From positions 1 through 28,213 of the IMG/VR virus record IMGVR_UViG_3300026078_000074: DNA of 28,213 bases, one strand, 5' to 3'. The position numbers were made by a program, and so were the translations under genes. Positions 4,620 to 20,419 of this stretch are shown piece after piece. The notes beneath the pieces are model-generated. The model was given only the letters and a program-made list of their open reading frames with translations. It was not told where the DNA came from and did no database searches. The stretch's first letter is position 1. Each line of letters opens with the position of its first letter. This DNA comes from a virus.

Positions 4620-7094
4620 ATGCCTTCTCTCAAGTCGAAGCGGTACAGCCCGTTCAGCCCGGCCGGGATGATCTACGTCGTGTGCCGGTCGTGGTTCCGA
4701 TACTTCGTCACCGGTCAGAGCGTCACCGGTCGGCGAGGCGATAACGCGAGCTTCCTTCATGCAGCCACGAAGGATGATCGCGGGAAGCCGGTCGAGCGGC
4801 TCAGTGGTCCGATCTGGCAGCGCCTCGCGCGTCGGTGGGCAGCCTTCGGGATGCCGCTTCTGTTTACGGCGTTCATCGGAGTGAGCGCCGTTGCGCGCTT
4901 CGTCTGCCGGTTGTTTGGGGTCACGACCCCGACTTTCTTCGAGCTGCCGTGGCTGTACGTGCTCGTCGGGTGGGAATCGCTCGTTCTCATCACGCTCGGC
5001 GGTTTCGGATACGCCGTGTTCTCGTCATGGTGGAAAGCGCGCCGCGAGATCAATGAGTTCGTAATCCCTGCGTGGCAGGCAGCCTGCGCGATTATGGGCA
5101 CGGCTTACCACCGTCGCGACGCGCGCCGCATGGTCGAGCTGCCCGAAGGCTTCGCCGTGGTCGACGAGAAGGGAGCAGACGAGCCCGGCATGTGGGGTCG
5201 GATCGCTGACCGGCTGATGCGCGATCGCCGGCAGCGGGCAGCGCTGAGCCGGGCCGAGAAGGAGGCTGCGCAGCCCGATCAGGGGGGTACCGACACACCC
5301 CCGGGGACCGACATTGCCGTACAGCGTTCACACCCGATCAGCCGGTACTTCGGCCGGAAGATCATCCCTGACACGGAGACGCCGGCCGAAGCGCCGGAGC
5401 CGCCCCCGGTTCGGATCTTCCTGTTCCCCGGCCGGGTGAGTTCGGAGCAAGACCGGAAACGCTTCGCTGCCGCTCTCGGCCCCGTGCTAGGGATGCCCGA
5501 AGTCAAGTGCGCGTGGTACCCGAAGGGCTCGCGCCCGTACGTCGAGATCCGTCCGCAGCTCGCGCCGCCCCCGGCCGTCAGCTTCGATCAGATCCGGAAG
5601 CATCTCGTGAAGGCGCCGCTAACTGCGCCGTTCATGGGTCTCGCCCCCGGTAATCACCCGGTCGGCATCGATCTCGACAATAACTCGCCACACACCCTGA
5701 TCTCCGGAGGCTCCGGCACCGGTAAGTCGGTTCTGCTGAAGAACTTCCTTGCGCAGCGAATGCACAACGGAGCCGGTGTCGTCATGCTCGATTACAAGCG
5801 CGTCTCTCACCGTTGGATGCACAATCTCGACGGCTGTGTGTACGCGTGGCGACTTGCTGAGATTCACGCGATGCTGTGCGCGGCCGGCGAGGAACTCGCT
5901 CGTCGACTTGAGAACGTGCTTCCGCCCGACGACGACATTGATGCGGAAATGCAGCAGTTCCCGACGATCGACATCGTTGTCGAAGAAATCAACTCGACGA
6001 CGAAGCTACTCGATGCGTACTGGCGGACCGTGCTCGACGGCAAGGGAACGAGCCCGGCGATCACGTCGCTGATGACCCTCGTCAACATGGGTCGGGAATA
6101 CTGCATGCACGTATGGATTGCCGCACAGCGCGCTTCTGCTTCCGTGTTCGGTAACAACGGAGGCGACCTGCGCGAGTCGTTCCAGACTCGCCTTATGGCG
6201 AAGTGGTCTGTGCAGACATGGAAAATGCTCGCCGGCAATGCGCAGTATCGTCGCTTCGTCGGTGGTCGTGGGGTGTGGGCACGCGTTCAAGACGATGAAG
6301 TCGAGATCGTGCGTGTGCCGCTTTGGACAACCAAGGAAGCGCGCGAGTGGGCGATGTCCGGCACTCCCTGCCCGGCGATCGTGCTTGCCGGTGGCGCACA
6401 CCGGGTCGGGGGCGACTCCCTGACGATCGAGCCGGACATCGGTCCGCAGCTCGTAACGTTGTCCGCCGCACTGCCGAGCCTGCCCCCGGACAACCGGGGT
6501 CGGACACTCTCGATCGACGGACTGCGCACAGCTAGTCGCCGGCCGGGCTTCCCCGAACCGAAGATCATCGGTGGTGGAACACGACCCTCGCTCTACGATC
6601 TCGAAGAGCTGATCGAGTGGCGCGTTCAGCGAGGGGTCGGTGAACTAGTGGAGATGTTCGATCAGCCTCCGGCTGTTCGTGAGCTGCGCCGTGCCGGCAT
6701 CGTGTACGCGTTCGAGTGCCTCAATCCCGAGTCAGGGGCGATCGAGTGCGGGTACGTCGGTCAGACCCGGCGCACGCTCGCTGAGCGCGAGGCAGAGCAT
6801 CGCGGAGATAAGCCGTGGGCAGATCTCATCGTGGGGTCGGGTCGGGTGGTCTGGACCGGCGAGCCGACAGACGAGGAACTCGACGCGATCGAACTCCGCT
6901 TCATCCGCACTCTGAGCCCCCGGTACAACGTGGACGGTCAGCGCGGAGCGCCGCACGCCGTGCCGAAGTGGGAACAGCTCGATCAGCGCCACGCGCGAGA
7001 CCGTCAGCTCGGCCGGGAATTGTGGGTGCCGATTGACGTGTACAACGGCGAGCGCCGACCGGAACGCGTTCAGGAATGGCGCCGACCGGCATAA
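4620..7094 (+). CDS. FtsK/TraB-like DNA translocase with C-terminal GIY-YIG domain
   Basis: 824 residues from ATG 4620 behind CGGAG. Two N-terminal membrane spans lie near residues 78-100 and 105-135. A linker leads to an FtsK/SpoIIIE-type ATPase: Walker A GGSGTGKS near 363-370, Walker B-like IDIVVEE near 446-452, and a typical WIAAQR block near residue 500. Such hexameric motors pump dsDNA; the actinobacterial plasmid version, TraB/Tra, moves unprocessed dsDNA between cells. Residues about 692-780 form an apparent GIY-YIG nuclease fold: IVYAFE, GYVGQTRR, LAERE, then ELRFIRTLSPRYN with the usual Glu and Asn. The usual C-terminal winged-helix DNA-recognition domain is not obvious and seems replaced by the nuclease domain. 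The next gene encodes an SpdB-like protein, which supports a transfer role. Alternatives: segregation, replication-intermediate processing or exclusion of competing DNA. Confidence 0.9.
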   Translation: MPSLKSKRYSPFSPAGMIYVVCRSWFRYFVTGQSVTGRRGDNASFLHAATKDDRGKPVERLSGPIWQRLARRWAAFGMPLLFTAFIGVSAVARFVCRLFGVTTPTFFELPWLYVLVGWESLVLITLGGFGYAVFSSWWKARREINEFVIPAWQAACAIMGTAYHRRDARRMVELPEGFAVVDEKGADEPGMWGRIADRLMRDRRQRAALSRAEKEAAQPDQGGTDTPPGTDIAVQRSHPISRYFGRKIIPDTETPAEAPEPPPVRIFLFPGRVSSEQDRKRFAAALGPVLGMPEVKCAWYPKGSRPYVEIRPQLAPPPAVSFDQIRKHLVKAPLTAPFMGLAPGNHPVGIDLDNNSPHTLISGGSGTGKSVLLKNFLAQRMHNGAGVVMLDYKRVSHRWMHNLDGCVYAWRLAEIHAMLCAAGEELARRLENVLPPDDDIDAEMQQFPTIDIVVEEINSTTKLLDAYWRTVLDGKGTSPAITSLMTLVNMGREYCMHVWIAAQRASASVFGNNGGDLRESFQTRLMAKWSVQTWKMLAGNAQYRRFVGGRGVWARVQDDEVEIVRVPLWTTKEAREWAMSGTPCPAIVLAGGAHRVGGDSLTIEPDIGPQLVTLSAALPSLPPDNRGRTLSIDGLRTASRRPGFPEPKIIGGGTRPSLYDLEELIEWRVQRGVGELVEMFDQPPAVRELRRAGIVYAFECLNPESGAIECGYVGQTRRTLAEREAEHRGDKPWADLIVGSGRVVWTGEPTDEELDAIELRFIRTLSPRYNVDGQRGAPHAVPKWEQLDQRHARDRQLGRELWVPIDVYNGERRPERVQEWRRPA

Positions 7095-7217
7095 GAAGAC
7101 GCGACGAGAAAGATCAGGAGGAACTTAACACCCGTTTACAAACGTAACTGACGCAAGTAGTCGTGACCTGCGCTTTCGCAGAGACGCGACTTAAGTCAAG
7201 GGGAAGGAGACCCCGCA
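7095..7217 (+). promoter_or_regulatory. Leader between translocase and SpdB-like genes
   Basis: This 123-base spacer contains an AGGAGG at 7116-7121 not followed by a usable start codon, a short operator-like palindrome CGTTTacAAACG (7133-7144), and a hairpin in which 7168-7172 pairs with 7177-7181 with a wobble-paired outer stem (7161-7166 with 7185-7190). The real ribosome site of the next gene is GGAAGGAG just before ATG 7218. It is likely a regulated internal promoter or leader, but no -35/-10 pair is convincing. Confidence 0.4.
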
Positions 7218-8132
7218 ATGAACAGTCAGACCGATCGACCGAAGTTCAGTCCCCTCTTCTTCGGGCTCGCCGGCATCACCCTCGCGCTCGCCTCGTGGGG
7301 TTACTTCCGGCTGTTCGTCGACTTCGCCGGCATGCCTCCACAGCTCGCGGTCTTCGCGGTCTTCGGGCTCGACGTGGCAGCCGTGCTCATCGGTAAGCAC
7401 GCGCTCACCGTGGCCGAAGACGGCGACTCGTCCCTTCCGTGGAACCTCACGCTGATCGGGCTCGTCGCAGTCGGCGCGTACGCGCAGTTCGCCCGGACCG
7501 TGCTCGCTCACGAGGCGCTCGCGATCGGCATCGTCAGCGCTGCGTTCCCGGTCGTGACCGTGCTTCTCTTCGAGGGTCAGCTTCGCCGGATCTACCGGCT
7601 GAACGGCCGGCGTGCCGGCCGGCTCGCCCCTCCCCGAGCGACGGTCGATCTCGTCACGTGGATCATGTACCGGAAGCTCGCAATGCGCGCGACGCGCCTC
7701 GCTGTGCTCGATCGGGGTCTCGACACCGACACCGCTCTGATGGTGGCCGAGCGGCAGCTTCAGATCGAAGCGGAGGCTTCTGTTCGTCCGCCTGCGCGCC
7801 GGATCATGCGCCGGACATACGCGTCTGAGCTGACCGGTGGGCAGCTCGTCGAGATCGAGCCGGGAACTCCTCCGGTGCATCGTCCGCCAAGCCCGGACAA
7901 CGGGGGCGGACGCACGGCGGACGAGCCGGACGAGTCGGCGGACAATTCGGCGGACGAGCCGGTTTCCGTGTCCGATGTCCGGCAGCGTGGCGATCTCGCG
8001 CGAGCGGTCGACGAGGCTCGGGAAATCGTGGGCGATGATCCGGAGAAGGTAATTCGGATCGTGCGCATGCGGTTTCCGGACGCGCTGCCCGACAACATTC
8101 GCCGCACACTTTCCCGGCGAATGGCGAGCTGA
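7218..8132 (+). CDS. SpdB/DUF2637-like membrane protein
   Basis: 304 residues from ATG 7218. Four hydrophobic segments lie at about 11-33, 38-60, 72-93 and 97-117; the second holds VFGLDVAAVLIG, matching the conserved aspartate-containing span of the DUF2637/SpdB2-type family as I recall it. A basic region follows (LRRIYRLNGRRAGR), then a helical segment (about 150-185), a disordered acidic stretch (about 225-255) and a C-terminal helical region (about 258-304) that could bind DNA. In Streptomyces plasmids and AICEs, Spd proteins accompany TraB and are needed for spread of transferred DNA through the mycelium. Placement directly behind an FtsK/TraB-like gene is the expected plasmid arrangement, unusual in a phage. 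Family assignment is by eye. Confidence 0.78.
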   Translation: MNSQTDRPKFSPLFFGLAGITLALASWGYFRLFVDFAGMPPQLAVFAVFGLDVAAVLIGKHALTVAEDGDSSLPWNLTLIGLVAVGAYAQFARTVLAHEALAIGIVSAAFPVVTVLLFEGQLRRIYRLNGRRAGRLAPPRATVDLVTWIMYRKLAMRATRLAVLDRGLDTDTALMVAERQLQIEAEASVRPPARRIMRRTYASELTGGQLVEIEPGTPPVHRPPSPDNGGGRTADEPDESADNSADEPVSVSDVRQRGDLARAVDEAREIVGDDPEKVIRIVRMRFPDALPDNIRRTLSRRMAS

Positions 8133-8177: not shown

Positions 8178-8214
8178 AGCGGCACCCCCTCTTCAGAAGC
8201 GAGGGGGTGCCGTT
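8178..8214. terminator. Intrinsic terminator behind SpdB-like gene
   Basis: A perfect 12-bp stem (8180-8191 with 8201-8212, CGGCACCCCCTC and its complement) encloses a nine-base loop, can extend by two pairs, and is followed by TTCCC. It lies 47 bases after the SpdB-like stop and should end the plus-strand transcript. Confidence 0.8.
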
Positions 8215-16902: not shown

Positions 16903-17735
16903 GTGGCGAGCCCCGTTCTCGTGCCGAGAGGCTTGAGCAGCTCGACGGCGCGATTCGGAATCGAGAAACCAAACCCGGGGAGAACCGTCGTGTCGTCACT
17001 GTTCCCTCGCCGTACCGCTGTGCTCACGGCACCCCGACCCCGCTGCGTCTCCCACAAGTGGGCTAGAATCACCTTCGCAGCGTGACTCATCGCTTCGGGG
17101 ATGATTCGACGGCCGGCGACGTACACCGCGTACCACCGACCGTGACTGAGGTAGATCGTGCCGTCAGTCGGATAGATCATCCCGCTTTCGTTGTCAACGG
17201 TGAGCGTCGTCGTGTCGAACGCTGTGCCGTAGAACGCGAGCGAAGTCAGAGAAATGATCGGTGCGTGCGGCAGAACGAGCGAGTATCCGCCACCGTCGAT
17301 GAATCGCCTGACGGTTTTCGGCTCGACTGACCCGGCGAGGTATTCGACGGCCGGGGTTAGGGTCCGGATGAACCCTAGAATCTCGTCGTCGTGGGTCGGG
17401 TTGTCAAGCGCGATGTTCAGATACTTCTTCCCGTCGTCGAGCCCTAGCAATTCCTGCGCGAAGGGATCGAAGACATCGATCACGCCGTTCCGAACGGTCT
17501 TGCCGGGGTCCGTTGTCGAGAATACCCATGCGTAATGACCGAAGTCTTCGATGTCCGTGTCGAGAATCGAGTGATACAGCCCGGTCCCGTCGTGCGCCGG
17601 AACAGCGATGTCGGCCGGCACATCGGTATCGGGGGAAAGGAGCTGCATCCGCACCGACCCCGGATCGACGAGTTCGCCGGAGAGATCGGTAACTTCGAAG
17701 TCGAGCCGTACCGGCTGCCCGCTAGGCACTCTCAC
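16899..17735 (-). CDS. Head-to-tail connector (adaptor) with N-terminal Ig-like domain
   Basis: 278 residues from GTG 17735, overlapping the preceding stop (GTGA). Residues about 1-90 look like an Ig-like beta sandwich (VRLDFEVTDLSGELVDPGSV, then YAWVFSTTDPGKTVRNGVIDVFDP in part). The remainder fits a gp6/gp15-type adaptor: the YLNIALDNPTHDDEILGFI helix, AVEYLAG, a beta-rich insert and a long C-terminal helix (AAKVILAHLWETQRG). Adaptor rings bind beneath the portal and connect to the stopper or terminator. The added N-terminal beta domain is a variation on the usual shorter form. Other neck proteins are not obvious, so this one may do more of the job. Confidence 0.78.
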   Translation of the reverse strand: MRVPSGQPVRLDFEVTDLSGELVDPGSVRMQLLSPDTDVPADIAVPAHDGTGLYHSILDTDIEDFGHYAWVFSTTDPGKTVRNGVIDVFDPFAQELLGLDDGKKYLNIALDNPTHDDEILGFIRTLTPAVEYLAGSVEPKTVRRFIDGGGYSLVLPHAPIISLTSLAFYGTAFDTTTLTVDNESGMIYPTDGTIYLSHGRWYAVYVAGRRIIPEAMSHAAKVILAHLWETQRGRGAVSTAVRRGNSDDTTVLPGFGFSIPNRAVELLKPLGTRTGLAT

Positions 17736-20419
17736 GACGCACCCTTCCTCACTGTGACCCGAGCCGAACCGGGGAAGCTGATCGCGACACCGGCTGCGCC
17801 GGTCGAGCGGACCCTGACGGAACTCGACGAGCCCGGCCGGGTTGAGACGGATGCCGAGCCAACGAAGCCCGGAGTGTGCGTGTTCGCGCTGATTCCGAGC
17901 ACGGCGATCGCGACGAGCTGCGCGAGCGCCTTCTGATCGAGACGTGCCGAGACGCTGAGAGCCGCTGTGCCGGTCAGAGCGACCCCGGCCGGCACAACCA
18001 CTACCCCGAGCCCGGAGAGGCTCGCAGCGGCGAGAAGAGCCACCGGGGCGACCGCGATGCGCTGACCGGCCACGGTGAGCAGGGACGAGGCGACAAGATC
18101 AGCCTCAGTCTGCCCGGCGATCAAGCCTGCGACGGTCAAAGTCGACTGCGCGTTCAGGGTCACGACCCCGAGTACGGTGACCAGACCAGACACCGCAAAC
18201 AGGGATGAAGCGGACAGATCGACGGCGCTGAGCTTCCCCACGACGCCGGCAACACTGAACGCCGAGCCGGCAGTGAGCGCCGCCGTCGCGATCGCCGTAC
18301 GCTGTCCACTGATCGCAAGCGTGGCCGAAGCGACGAGAGCGGCTGCCGTTTGCCCGGCGACTGTCGCTGCGACACCTAGCGACGCATCCGCAGTCAACGC
18401 AGCTACGCCGAGCACGGTGCGCGTGCCGGCTGCCGTCAGAGTCGCTCCGGCCACGATTGCGACCGACCCGAGCACGGTGACAACCCCGGTTGTCGAGAGA
18501 CTCGACGCAGCGCTCAGCGCCGCTGTTCCGGGGCGAGTGACGACACCGCTCGCGCTCAGCGAAGCGGCAGCGATCAGATCAGCGGCAGCGCTCGCCCCAC
18601 CGATCACCGTGCCGGTTGCAGCCAATGTCGACGAAGCAGCGAGCGCAGCGCTCGCGAGCTTCGACACTACGGCTGCCGTGGAAAGATCCGAACTTGCTGC
18701 GAGGTTCGCGACCCCGAGTCGGGTCACGACCCCCGATGCGCCTAGGGTCGCACCGGCCGTGAGCGCAGCAGTCCCGAGCCGGGTCACGATCCCAGCGACG
18801 GCGAGTTGCGCGCTCGCCGTCAGACCGGCAGCACCGAAGCCGGCCAGGGTAGCGGATGCCGAGAGGGATGCGGTCGCCGTGAGCGATGCGCTCGCGATCT
18901 TCGAGACGACGCCGGTTGCGGCGAGGCTCGACGACGCCGTGAGCGATGCGCTCGCGACCTTGGTAACGACGCCGGTTGCAGCAAGGCTCGACGACGCTGC
19001 GAGCGATGCGCTCGCGAGAGCTGTAACGGTCCCCGTTGCAACGAGGCTCGCCGTTGCCGTCAGCGCAGCCGAGCCGTTCTGCGTCGCCGGTCCACCGGCA
19101 CGGATCTCGAAGATGACCGTGTTCGCCTGCGAAGCGTCCGGAGTCACCCACGACGACGAGTTCGACACGCCGGCCGAGCCCGCTTCGTAGCCGACCGACC
19201 CGGAAGCCTGTCCGCTGATCGTCCATGTGTCTTCAACGAGATCCGAAGAGTTCATCGTCGCCGGAGCAGTCCAATCGGACGCGCCGGAGATGATGAGCCC
19301 CGTCGTCTGCGGAGTGATCGCAGCAGTCGTGATCGTGGCAGCCGTCGATGTGCCCGGCGCGCTCGAACCGATCGGGGTCGTCGAGTCGTACCCACTGCGG
19401 ATGATGTACAGCTTCGACGCGAGACCATTCGCCCCGGCACCGATTGACACGGCTGCCGTGACGGTCGCCGTTGTCTGCGAAGCGAACGCTCTCCGGTACG
19501 CGCCGACGAAGCCGGGTTGCCCGCCCGTAAGCGATTGATCCTCAATCAGCGTCCACGTATTACCGGCTGAGTCGGTGACAGTTCCGGTTAGGTTGCTGCC
19601 GCTCGGCCCGTTCGCCGTGACGACGAGGATTCCGAGCGAACCTGCCGGGAAGGTACGACTCGCGCTTACGACTGAAGTCGCTCCGGCGTTCGAGTTCAGA
19701 TCTGTCGGGAACTCTTCGAACTCGATCCCGTTGACGACGTGAAGTGCCTGCCCGGTCGTGACAAGCGACGCGCTCGCCGTCAGATCTGCCGAACCCTGCT
19801 GCTCCGGGGGAAGGAACACGAGGTTTTGTGAAAACTCAATCCATGCAACCGTGCCGGTCGTATCACCTTCGGTGACTGCGTGATCGGTGCCGTTACCGCC
19901 GATCACCATGTCATACTGCGGGCTCGTACCGGTCGAGCTGAGACCGTAGCCGACTTCTACTAGAATGCGGTCGCCGGCTTGCACGTTGACTGTTCCGGTG
20001 CCAGCAACGTTCGCCATGATCTGACCGGACAGCGACGTACCTAGTTCAGTCGTGCTCGATGTCGCCTGCATCGAGTTCATGACGGCACGCACAGTCGAAC
20101 CGTCATTCGAAATGATCTTTGTTACGCGCCACCGCTTGTTAACGTTGTCGGTAGTGGAGAGTTCTCGCCCCCGGCACATTAACGTGACGGTTCCACCCGT
20201 GATCGTCTGCGCGTCGAGTGGATCAGAGATAAGCTGAAAGGCGAGCGCGTTGTTACCCGCACCCGACGTGACATTGACGGCGGACCGGGTTTCGGTAGTG
20301 GCAGCCTTAGTCAGCGAAAGACCACGACGTACAGCGCTAGTTGTATCAATCCACCCCGAGTCGAACGCCGGAGAGACGGGGGCAGCCGTGTTAGCAACGC
20401 CATACAGCCTCGTCGCCAC
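17732..20419 (-). CDS. Large structural protein with tandem 20-residue repeats
   Basis: 895 residues from GTG 20419 behind GGGGGCAGCC. Residues about 1-205 look like a beta-sandwich domain (GWIDTTSAVRRGLSL, WRVTKIISNDGSTVRAVM), and about 230-440 like a second (GNTWTLIEDQSLTGG, ANTVIFEIRAGGPA). Residues about 445-830 hold about 20 imperfect tandem repeats of 20 residues, consensus near A-L-T-A-x-A-S-L-x-A-T-G-V-V-T-x-L-G-x-A; one isolated copy (ADLTASASLVTTG) lies between the two beta domains. A short Ser/Gly/Arg/Val-rich tail ends the protein. The regular spacing suggests a beta-solenoid, so a fibre-like shaft attached to the capsid or neck is likely. The gene lies between head proteins and the connector, where a protein this large is unusual. 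Confidence 0.8.
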   Translation of the reverse strand: MATRLYGVANTAAPVSPAFDSGWIDTTSAVRRGLSLTKAATTETRSAVNVTSGAGNNALAFQLISDPLDAQTITGGTVTLMCRGRELSTTDNVNKRWRVTKIISNDGSTVRAVMNSMQATSSTTELGTSLSGQIMANVAGTGTVNVQAGDRILVEVGYGLSSTGTSPQYDMVIGGNGTDHAVTEGDTTGTVAWIEFSQNLVFLPPEQQGSADLTASASLVTTGQALHVVNGIEFEEFPTDLNSNAGATSVVSASRTFPAGSLGILVVTANGPSGSNLTGTVTDSAGNTWTLIEDQSLTGGQPGFVGAYRRAFASQTTATVTAAVSIGAGANGLASKLYIIRSGYDSTTPIGSSAPGTSTAATITTAAITPQTTGLIISGASDWTAPATMNSSDLVEDTWTISGQASGSVGYEAGSAGVSNSSSWVTPDASQANTVIFEIRAGGPATQNGSAALTATASLVATGTVTALASASLAASSSLAATGVVTKVASASLTASSSLAATGVVSKIASASLTATASLSASATLAGFGAAGLTASAQLAVAGIVTRLGTAALTAGATLGASGVVTRLGVANLAASSDLSTAAVVSKLASAALAASSTLAATGTVIGGASAAADLIAAASLSASGVVTRPGTAALSAASSLSTTGVVTVLGSVAIVAGATLTAAGTRTVLGVAALTADASLGVAATVAGQTAAALVASATLAISGQRTAIATAALTAGSAFSVAGVVGKLSAVDLSASSLFAVSGLVTVLGVVTLNAQSTLTVAGLIAGQTEADLVASSLLTVAGQRIAVAPVALLAAASLSGLGVVVVPAGVALTGTAALSVSARLDQKALAQLVAIAVLGISANTHTPGFVGSASVSTRPGSSSSVRVRSTGAAGVAISFPGSARVTVRKGAS
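17900..19090 (-). repeat. Tandem array of about 20 degenerate 60-bp repeats
   Basis: Within the 895-aa gene, a 60-base unit (20 codons) recurs about 20 times with substitutions and few length changes; one junction, between the eighth and ninth units, adds about two codons. Best-kept units, around 18880-19020, share near-identical segments such as GTGAGCGATGCGCTCGCGA on the plus strand. Confidence 0.8.

Follow-up and report, generated by a model that had tools for sequence, protein, structure and literature searches.

What would a tailed phage do with a membrane-anchored DNA motor that carries a nuclease on the same polypeptide? The question is raised by the virus record IMGVR_UViG_3300026078_000074, a fragment of a tailed phage genome that was analysed over its whole length of 28,213 bases (hereafter the window), and in which an earlier note had described an FtsK/TraB-like translocase fused to a GIY-YIG nuclease. 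The terminase, tape measure, and endolysin of the window match PHROG families, and a megablast search with its first 25 kb returned no match in the phage collection. The relatives of its terminase are mostly actinophages (best about 32–35% identity) and its GC content is 60–66%, so the host is probably a high-GC bacterium, an actinobacterium. Most structural and lysis genes are carried on the minus strand; the plus strand holds the motor-nuclease gene and a DUF2637 gene, placed between the tail and lysis genes. One minus-strand gene (17732–20419) encodes an 895-aa protein whose C-terminal half consists of Ala/Ser/Thr-rich repeats of about 18–20 residues (TASASLxATGxVTxL...), matched at the DNA level by 60-nt repeats.

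Domain anatomy of the motor-nuclease protein

The open reading frame at 4620–7094 (plus strand) begins with an ATG preceded by GGAG and encodes 824 aa, in which a membrane anchor is followed by an FtsK-type motor, a wHTH-like domain, and a GIY-YIG domain. This layout is well supported by computation, drawing on Pfam, AlphaFold, Foldseek, VIA, and a full-length homologue in the phage contig L009 (47% alignment identity); its purpose we infer. Two transmembrane helices are predicted within residues 65–159 (4812–5096), in agreement with the earlier note, since hydrophobic stretches at about 73–103 and 106–134 coincide with helices 65–98 and 111–159 of the AlphaFold model. That model, built with 36 aligned sequences, is confident over the motor domain and of low confidence at the C-terminus.

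The motor spans residues 263–585 (5406–6374, plus strand) and matches Pfam FtsK_SpoIIIE slightly above the family cut-off (E=2.6e-5). Its best Foldseek match is an FtsK motor (E=2.6e-14), and its best VIA match is TcpA of pCW3 (Z 27.1 over 325 residues), with FtsK at Z 25.3. The Walker A motif GGSGTGKS lies at residues 363–370 (5706–5729), just where it had been described, and G366, G368, K369, and S370 are invariant in a 42-row family alignment. The Walker B-like motif IDIVVEE, previously placed near residue 446, is present a few residues later at 450–456 (5967–5987); E455, E456, and N458 at this site are invariant in the same alignment. Walker A and B motifs together with the FtsK motor fold make the protein a member of the FtsK/SpoIIIE/HerA superfamily. 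TcpA of pCW3 and cellular FtsK share this motor fold but lack a GIY-YIG domain and end in another C-terminal domain.

Behind the motor, residues 608–672 (6441–6635, plus strand) are predicted confidently (AlphaFold pLDDT mostly 83–91) as a wHTH-like domain. They align with the C-terminal domain of nuclease-free plasmid homologues, in which the pattern LR..(R)..FP......LY...L..W.RNR recurs and in nearly all of which, among those examined, this domain forms the end of the protein. The L009 protein has a wHTH-like domain as well (LRKAAQRAGFPEP...). Profile searches of the PDB gave weak matches to the MerR-type regulators 3whp and CarH (E 0.013–0.014) and to an AlpA protein (E 0.49), so that the domain is probably of the MerR/AlpA type; the FtsK gamma domain had no Pfam match anywhere in the 824-aa protein. 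It had been supposed that the nuclease sits in the place of the DNA-reading domain. The alignment with the plasmid homologues argues otherwise: the DNA-reading module has been retained, and the nuclease is therefore appended behind it.

The GIY-YIG domain, reported earlier at about 692–780, occupies residues 691–772 (6690–6935, plus strand), with all five signature residues present (Y696, Y712, R723, E758, and N770). H727 occupies the place of UvrC Y43, one of the residues (with Y19, Y29, and N88) named in the titles of PDB entries among the Foldseek matches. The spacing from E758 to N770 is 12, the same as from E76 to N88 of UvrC. With the single sequence, the Pfam GIY-YIG match (domain E=0.0036) reached 18.0 bits against a curated cut-off of 22.6, which is a detection threshold and not a biological feature. 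A profile of the three phage homologues, however, matched actinobacterial proteins that join a UvrC-like GIY-YIG domain to an N-terminal DEDDh exonuclease (best E=2.8e-6), and also genuine UvrC (E 0.016). Folded alone, the domain adopts the order strand-strand-helix-strand-helix in a modestly confident model (mean pLDDT 54). The seven best Foldseek matches of this model are UvrC GIY-YIG N-terminal domains (E 0.057–0.13), and VIA placed UvrC first (Z 6.5), followed by PD-T4-3, Slx1, and HIGLE, the leading matches being GIY-YIG folds. A profile search of the PDB with the nuclease alignment alone gave no GIY-YIG match, so solved structures are out of reach by sequence alone. Because the family profile, the separately predicted fold, and the conserved signature residues agree, the weak single-sequence match becomes a solid prediction of a UvrC/Cho-type GIY-YIG nuclease domain. 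UvrC/Cho-type nucleases, including the actinobacterial DEDDh-exonuclease proteins, share the fold and signature residues, whereas the domain in the window is fused to a DNA motor. A C-terminal tail (residues 773–824; 6936–7091, plus strand) is partly kept in the alignments with L009 and a third phage contig, L068.

The appearance of Slx1, a GIY-YIG enzyme of the type that cuts branched DNA, among the fold matches bears on a role in the lytic cycle. A phage nuclease joined to a DNA motor might resolve phage concatemers, as the earlier note suggested, or branched intermediates, or it might degrade the host chromosome at the membrane. We consider this improbable: the closest sequence relatives found for the domain are UvrC/Cho-type proteins and not resolvases, the phage has a packaging terminase of its own, the gene and its neighbour are transcribed against the late genes, and both that neighbour and the membrane anchor point to work at the envelope.

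Relatives of the fusion in phages and plasmids

L009, a 38-kb phage contig, carries the whole fusion in one open reading frame that is 47% identical to the window protein, while L068, a phage contig of 17.6 kb, begins inside the nuclease (66% identical) and runs on into the same DUF2637 neighbour gene; the fusion is therefore not an assembly accident. The phage set thus comprises three contigs, two of which span the junction. All five signature residues are kept in L009, and the Arg, Glu, and Asn are kept in L068, which starts past both Tyr. Between the window and L009, identity is 62% in the GIY-YIG domain, 48% in the motor, 44% in the wHTH-like domain, and 37% in the membrane region, and changes in the GIY-YIG region fall on first, second, and third codon positions 21, 21, and 51 times. 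From this top rank in conservation and the strong third-position excess, the nuclease domain is judged to be under purifying selection. Phages often carry GIY-YIG homing nucleases, and the plasmid relatives of the motor manage without such a domain, so it might be thought a passenger, for instance a homing-type nuclease or a relic, with no part in the job of the motor. We hold this to be very improbable, given that the domain is in frame in L009 as well as in the window, the two contigs covering the junction, and that the best-conserved part of the protein, with its signature residues intact, shows the codon pattern just described.

Scans of the viral and genome contigs with the single protein and with a two-row profile found no further fusion except that in L009, and a nuclease-only profile of the contigs added L068. 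None was found in 396 evenly sampled actinobacterial genomes, and a Gordonia plasmid match that seemed to span the nuclease was rejected, as it has no GIY-YIG domain. These absences hold for the collections and patterns used. The titles and abstracts returned by an incomplete literature search contained no precedent for a phage fusion of FtsK and GIY-YIG. The fusion described in the earlier note is borne out by the family profile, by Foldseek and VIA, by the signature residues, and by L009.

The nearest relatives of the motor were found in 72 actinobacterial plasmid records and 47 actinobacterial genome loci, at about 30–37% identity over the motor, with tblastn E values down to 1e-46 for the plasmid matches. 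In the Pseudonocardia plasmid pPSED03 (L048) the match extends over residues 25–673 of the window protein. Similarity over the motor, the anchor region, and the wHTH-like domain assigns the protein, at the level of sequence, to the actinobacterial plasmid pRL2-11/FtsK-like family. Like the window protein, plasmid motors of this family (for example those of pFRL3, L007, and pPSED03, L048) have a membrane anchor, a motor, and a C-terminal wHTH-like domain, and several have a DUF2637 neighbour; unlike it, they carry no GIY-YIG domain, which was absent from all 47 genome loci and from the five plasmid loci inspected. In a tree of the motor domain, both fusion proteins form one deep clade with 100/100 support on a long branch, and the base of the tree is without resolution.

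The same tree places motor-only phage proteins (L002 and L010–L018, Streptomyces phage Dagobah among them) in a separate clade; these are about 300–390 aa long, with neither membrane anchor nor nuclease. Many Streptomyces plasmid-type loci (L020, L022, L024, L026, L027, L029, L030, L034, L036, L038, L060, and L006) encode one or two further motor paralogues, mostly short (about 260–330 aa), directly behind the full-length motor gene, and these form their own branch. In L009, the fusion gene is immediately preceded by an open reading frame for a SprT-like metalloprotease with a HELIH motif (L009:5163–5852, plus strand); none was seen in the window. Inspection of open reading frames by eye also indicates DNA polymerase I-like, primase-like, SF2 helicase, and HNH proteins in the L009 phage (L088).

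The DUF2637 neighbour and the surroundings of the cassette

The earlier reading of the locus recognised the fusion protein but overlooked its partner gene, which lies at 7218–8132 on the plus strand and encodes a multi-spanning, DUF2637-like membrane protein of 304 aa. The Pfam DUF2637 match (E=1.6e-4, 22.0 bits) is slightly below the cut-off of 22.8, and homologues with 52–53% identity occupy the same place after the motor gene in L009 and L068. A DUF2637 profile of the contigs matched these two and none further. In the three phage contigs, as shown by computation, the motor-nuclease and DUF2637 genes occur together as a conserved cassette of two genes; in L009 the two genes are separated by about 1 kb with small open reading frames. 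DUF2637 genes also adjoin the motor in L007 (as annotated) and in L028, L040, L048, and L058, the last four above the Pfam cut-off. Many head and tail genes of the window recur in L068 (one at 74%). The overlap with L009 lies mainly in the cassette and its lysis neighbours, with weak similarity in the terminase and tail; since its head genes differ, conservation of the cassette extends to phages whose heads are unlike. A membrane protein of Streptomyces phage Enygma, encoded by gene 31 (L094:3932–4828) in a region without an annotated motor gene, is 28% identical over part of the DUF2637-like protein.

In both contigs that span it, the cassette is an opposite-strand unit between the tail and lysis genes. 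Between the cassette and the convergent late genes, the window contains a perfect 12-bp GC-rich inverted repeat (8180–8212) with a fold z-score of −4.2, and none of 200 shuffles was equally stable. It has no T-run and was missed by the scan for T-run terminators; it is possibly a bidirectional terminator. A sigma-70 promoter scan of the cassette, which is uninformative for a high-GC host, found none. The intergenic region after the motor gene (7095–7217) contains CGTTTACAAACG, and GTTYACA words like these are present behind the motor gene in both L068 and L009. Such words may serve as a promoter or as a recognition site, although as repeats they are not above chance. A search of this region for clt-like repeats found one direct repeat and 5-bp inverted repeats that did not exceed those of shuffled sequence, and no notable 8-mer clusters were found outside it.

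Proposed roles: a captured transfer machine or a weapon against foreign DNA

Streptomyces TraB proteins transport dsDNA and act with membrane Spd proteins (PMC4170104, PMC12857230). In layout like the window protein with its anchor, wHTH-like domain, and DUF2637 neighbour, the TraB/Tra proteins of this genus (pIJ101 Tra, pSVH1 TraB, and pWTY27 TraA) are membrane-anchored FtsK-type dsDNA motors with a C-terminal wHTH and a membrane partner; in pWTY27 TraA, two TM segments lie at 68–90 and 102–124 (PMC3583192). The pIJ101 transfer protein aligns with the window protein by hhalign (probability 94%, E 1.2e-7) in the motor region only, while for the anchor and the wHTH-like domain the likeness is one of layout. 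Several features set the two apart. The wHTH of pIJ101 Tra is of the MarR type, whereas that of the window protein appears MerR/AlpA-like; Streptomyces Tra has no nuclease; and clt is part of the Streptomyces TraB system, whereas none was identified near the motor gene in the window. The DUF2637-like protein resembles pIJ101 SpdB in size and layout by eye, with no detectable homology in the comparison of the two (E 0.089, probability under 1%). A phage-like element with a transfer system is known from the plasmid-phage pZL12, for which conjugal transfer that depends on a major tra gene and two adjacent genes has been reported (PMC3583192); the likeness drawn here is one of description.

Our leading, though tentative, explanation is that phages have captured a plasmid-style machine for dsDNA transfer or maintenance that cuts the DNA it handles. 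The fusion protein would form a hexamer at the membrane, probably together with the DUF2637 protein. DNA would be selected or oriented by the wHTH-like domain and pumped by the FtsK-type motor, and a GIY-YIG domain attached at the opening of the ring would nick or cut the DNA being handled. Assembly, pumping, and choice of DNA are here borrowed from FtsK/TraB biology, and cutting is read from the fusion. Such a machine could move the phage's own DNA, or a prophage in a plasmid state, through a septum or into an adjacent cell or compartment, the nuclease providing a free end, a release step, or a resolution step that the plasmid relatives would obtain elsewhere. We place this explanation first because every plasmid-motor feature examined has been kept along with the DUF2637 neighbour, because TcpA, a conjugative motor, is among the closest solved structures and the motor region is also matched by the pIJ101 transfer protein, and because TraB proteins and the plasmid-phage pZL12 offer the precedents cited above. 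It is favoured further by a nuclease judged to be under selection and by the joint presence of the motor's nuclease end and DUF2637 in each of the three phage contigs found, of which two differ in their head genes. Counted against it are the lack of a clt-like repeat cluster after the gene, the absence of identified plasmid replication or partition genes in the window, which is a fragmentary contig, the orientation of the cassette opposite the late genes, as in accessory morons, and the undetected homology of DUF2637 to SpdB. Spread across septa would, moreover, make sense only in a mycelial host, and the host here is one that we infer.

The same orientation fits a close rival, in which the captured plasmid motor has been turned into a weapon that seizes incoming or resident foreign DNA at the membrane and feeds it to the GIY-YIG domain, resulting in exclusion of superinfecting phages or plasmids. 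A separate, moron-like unit between the tail and lysis genes, followed in the window by a strong hairpin, would suit this role, as would a nuclease that is the most conserved domain of the protein. The pairing of HerA/FtsK motors with nucleases is well established among defence systems: DndH, a "HerA/FtsK capture" protein, couples its motor to a nuclease (PMC10853773), and structures of HerA-NurA, HerA-DUF4297, and HerA-SIR2 are among the fold matches of the window motor. DndH and related HerA/FtsK-capture proteins resemble the window protein in combining such a motor with nuclease and HTH domains (PMC10853773), although in the window the nuclease is different, the protein is membrane anchored and phage-encoded, and no Dnd/Ssp partners were seen. 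PADLOC matches were confined to parts of the ATPase, for the most part near the P-loop, with neither a full-length match nor the partner genes of a known anti-phage system, so no such system is linked to the locus. The wHTH-like domain and the plasmid-type DUF2637 partner would also be superfluous for non-specific destruction, and the phage genome would have to be spared by timing, place, or sequence, a sparing that is as yet unexplained. On balance, we regard an exclusion role as plausible, and as somewhat less likely than transfer. Cutting at a stalling point, release of transferred DNA, concatemer processing, and attack on rival genomes, all proposed in the earlier note, are each possible.

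The broadest form of the transfer explanation, a tailed phage that uses a conjugation-like pump-and-cut machine for non-lytic movement of DNA between compartments or cells, with cutting built into the motor, is in our estimate unlikely. The protein nonetheless joins a dsDNA-pumping motor and a predicted nuclease in one chain. To our knowledge, the source of the DNA end in plasmid TraB systems is unclear, and the fusion makes testable how closed circular DNA is handled in Streptomyces-type dsDNA transfer; alternatively, it may represent a phage exclusion system that arose from the transfer motor of a plasmid. In either case the locus connects three otherwise separate fields: actinobacterial plasmid conjugation, phage accessory genes, and HerA/FtsK-nuclease defence.
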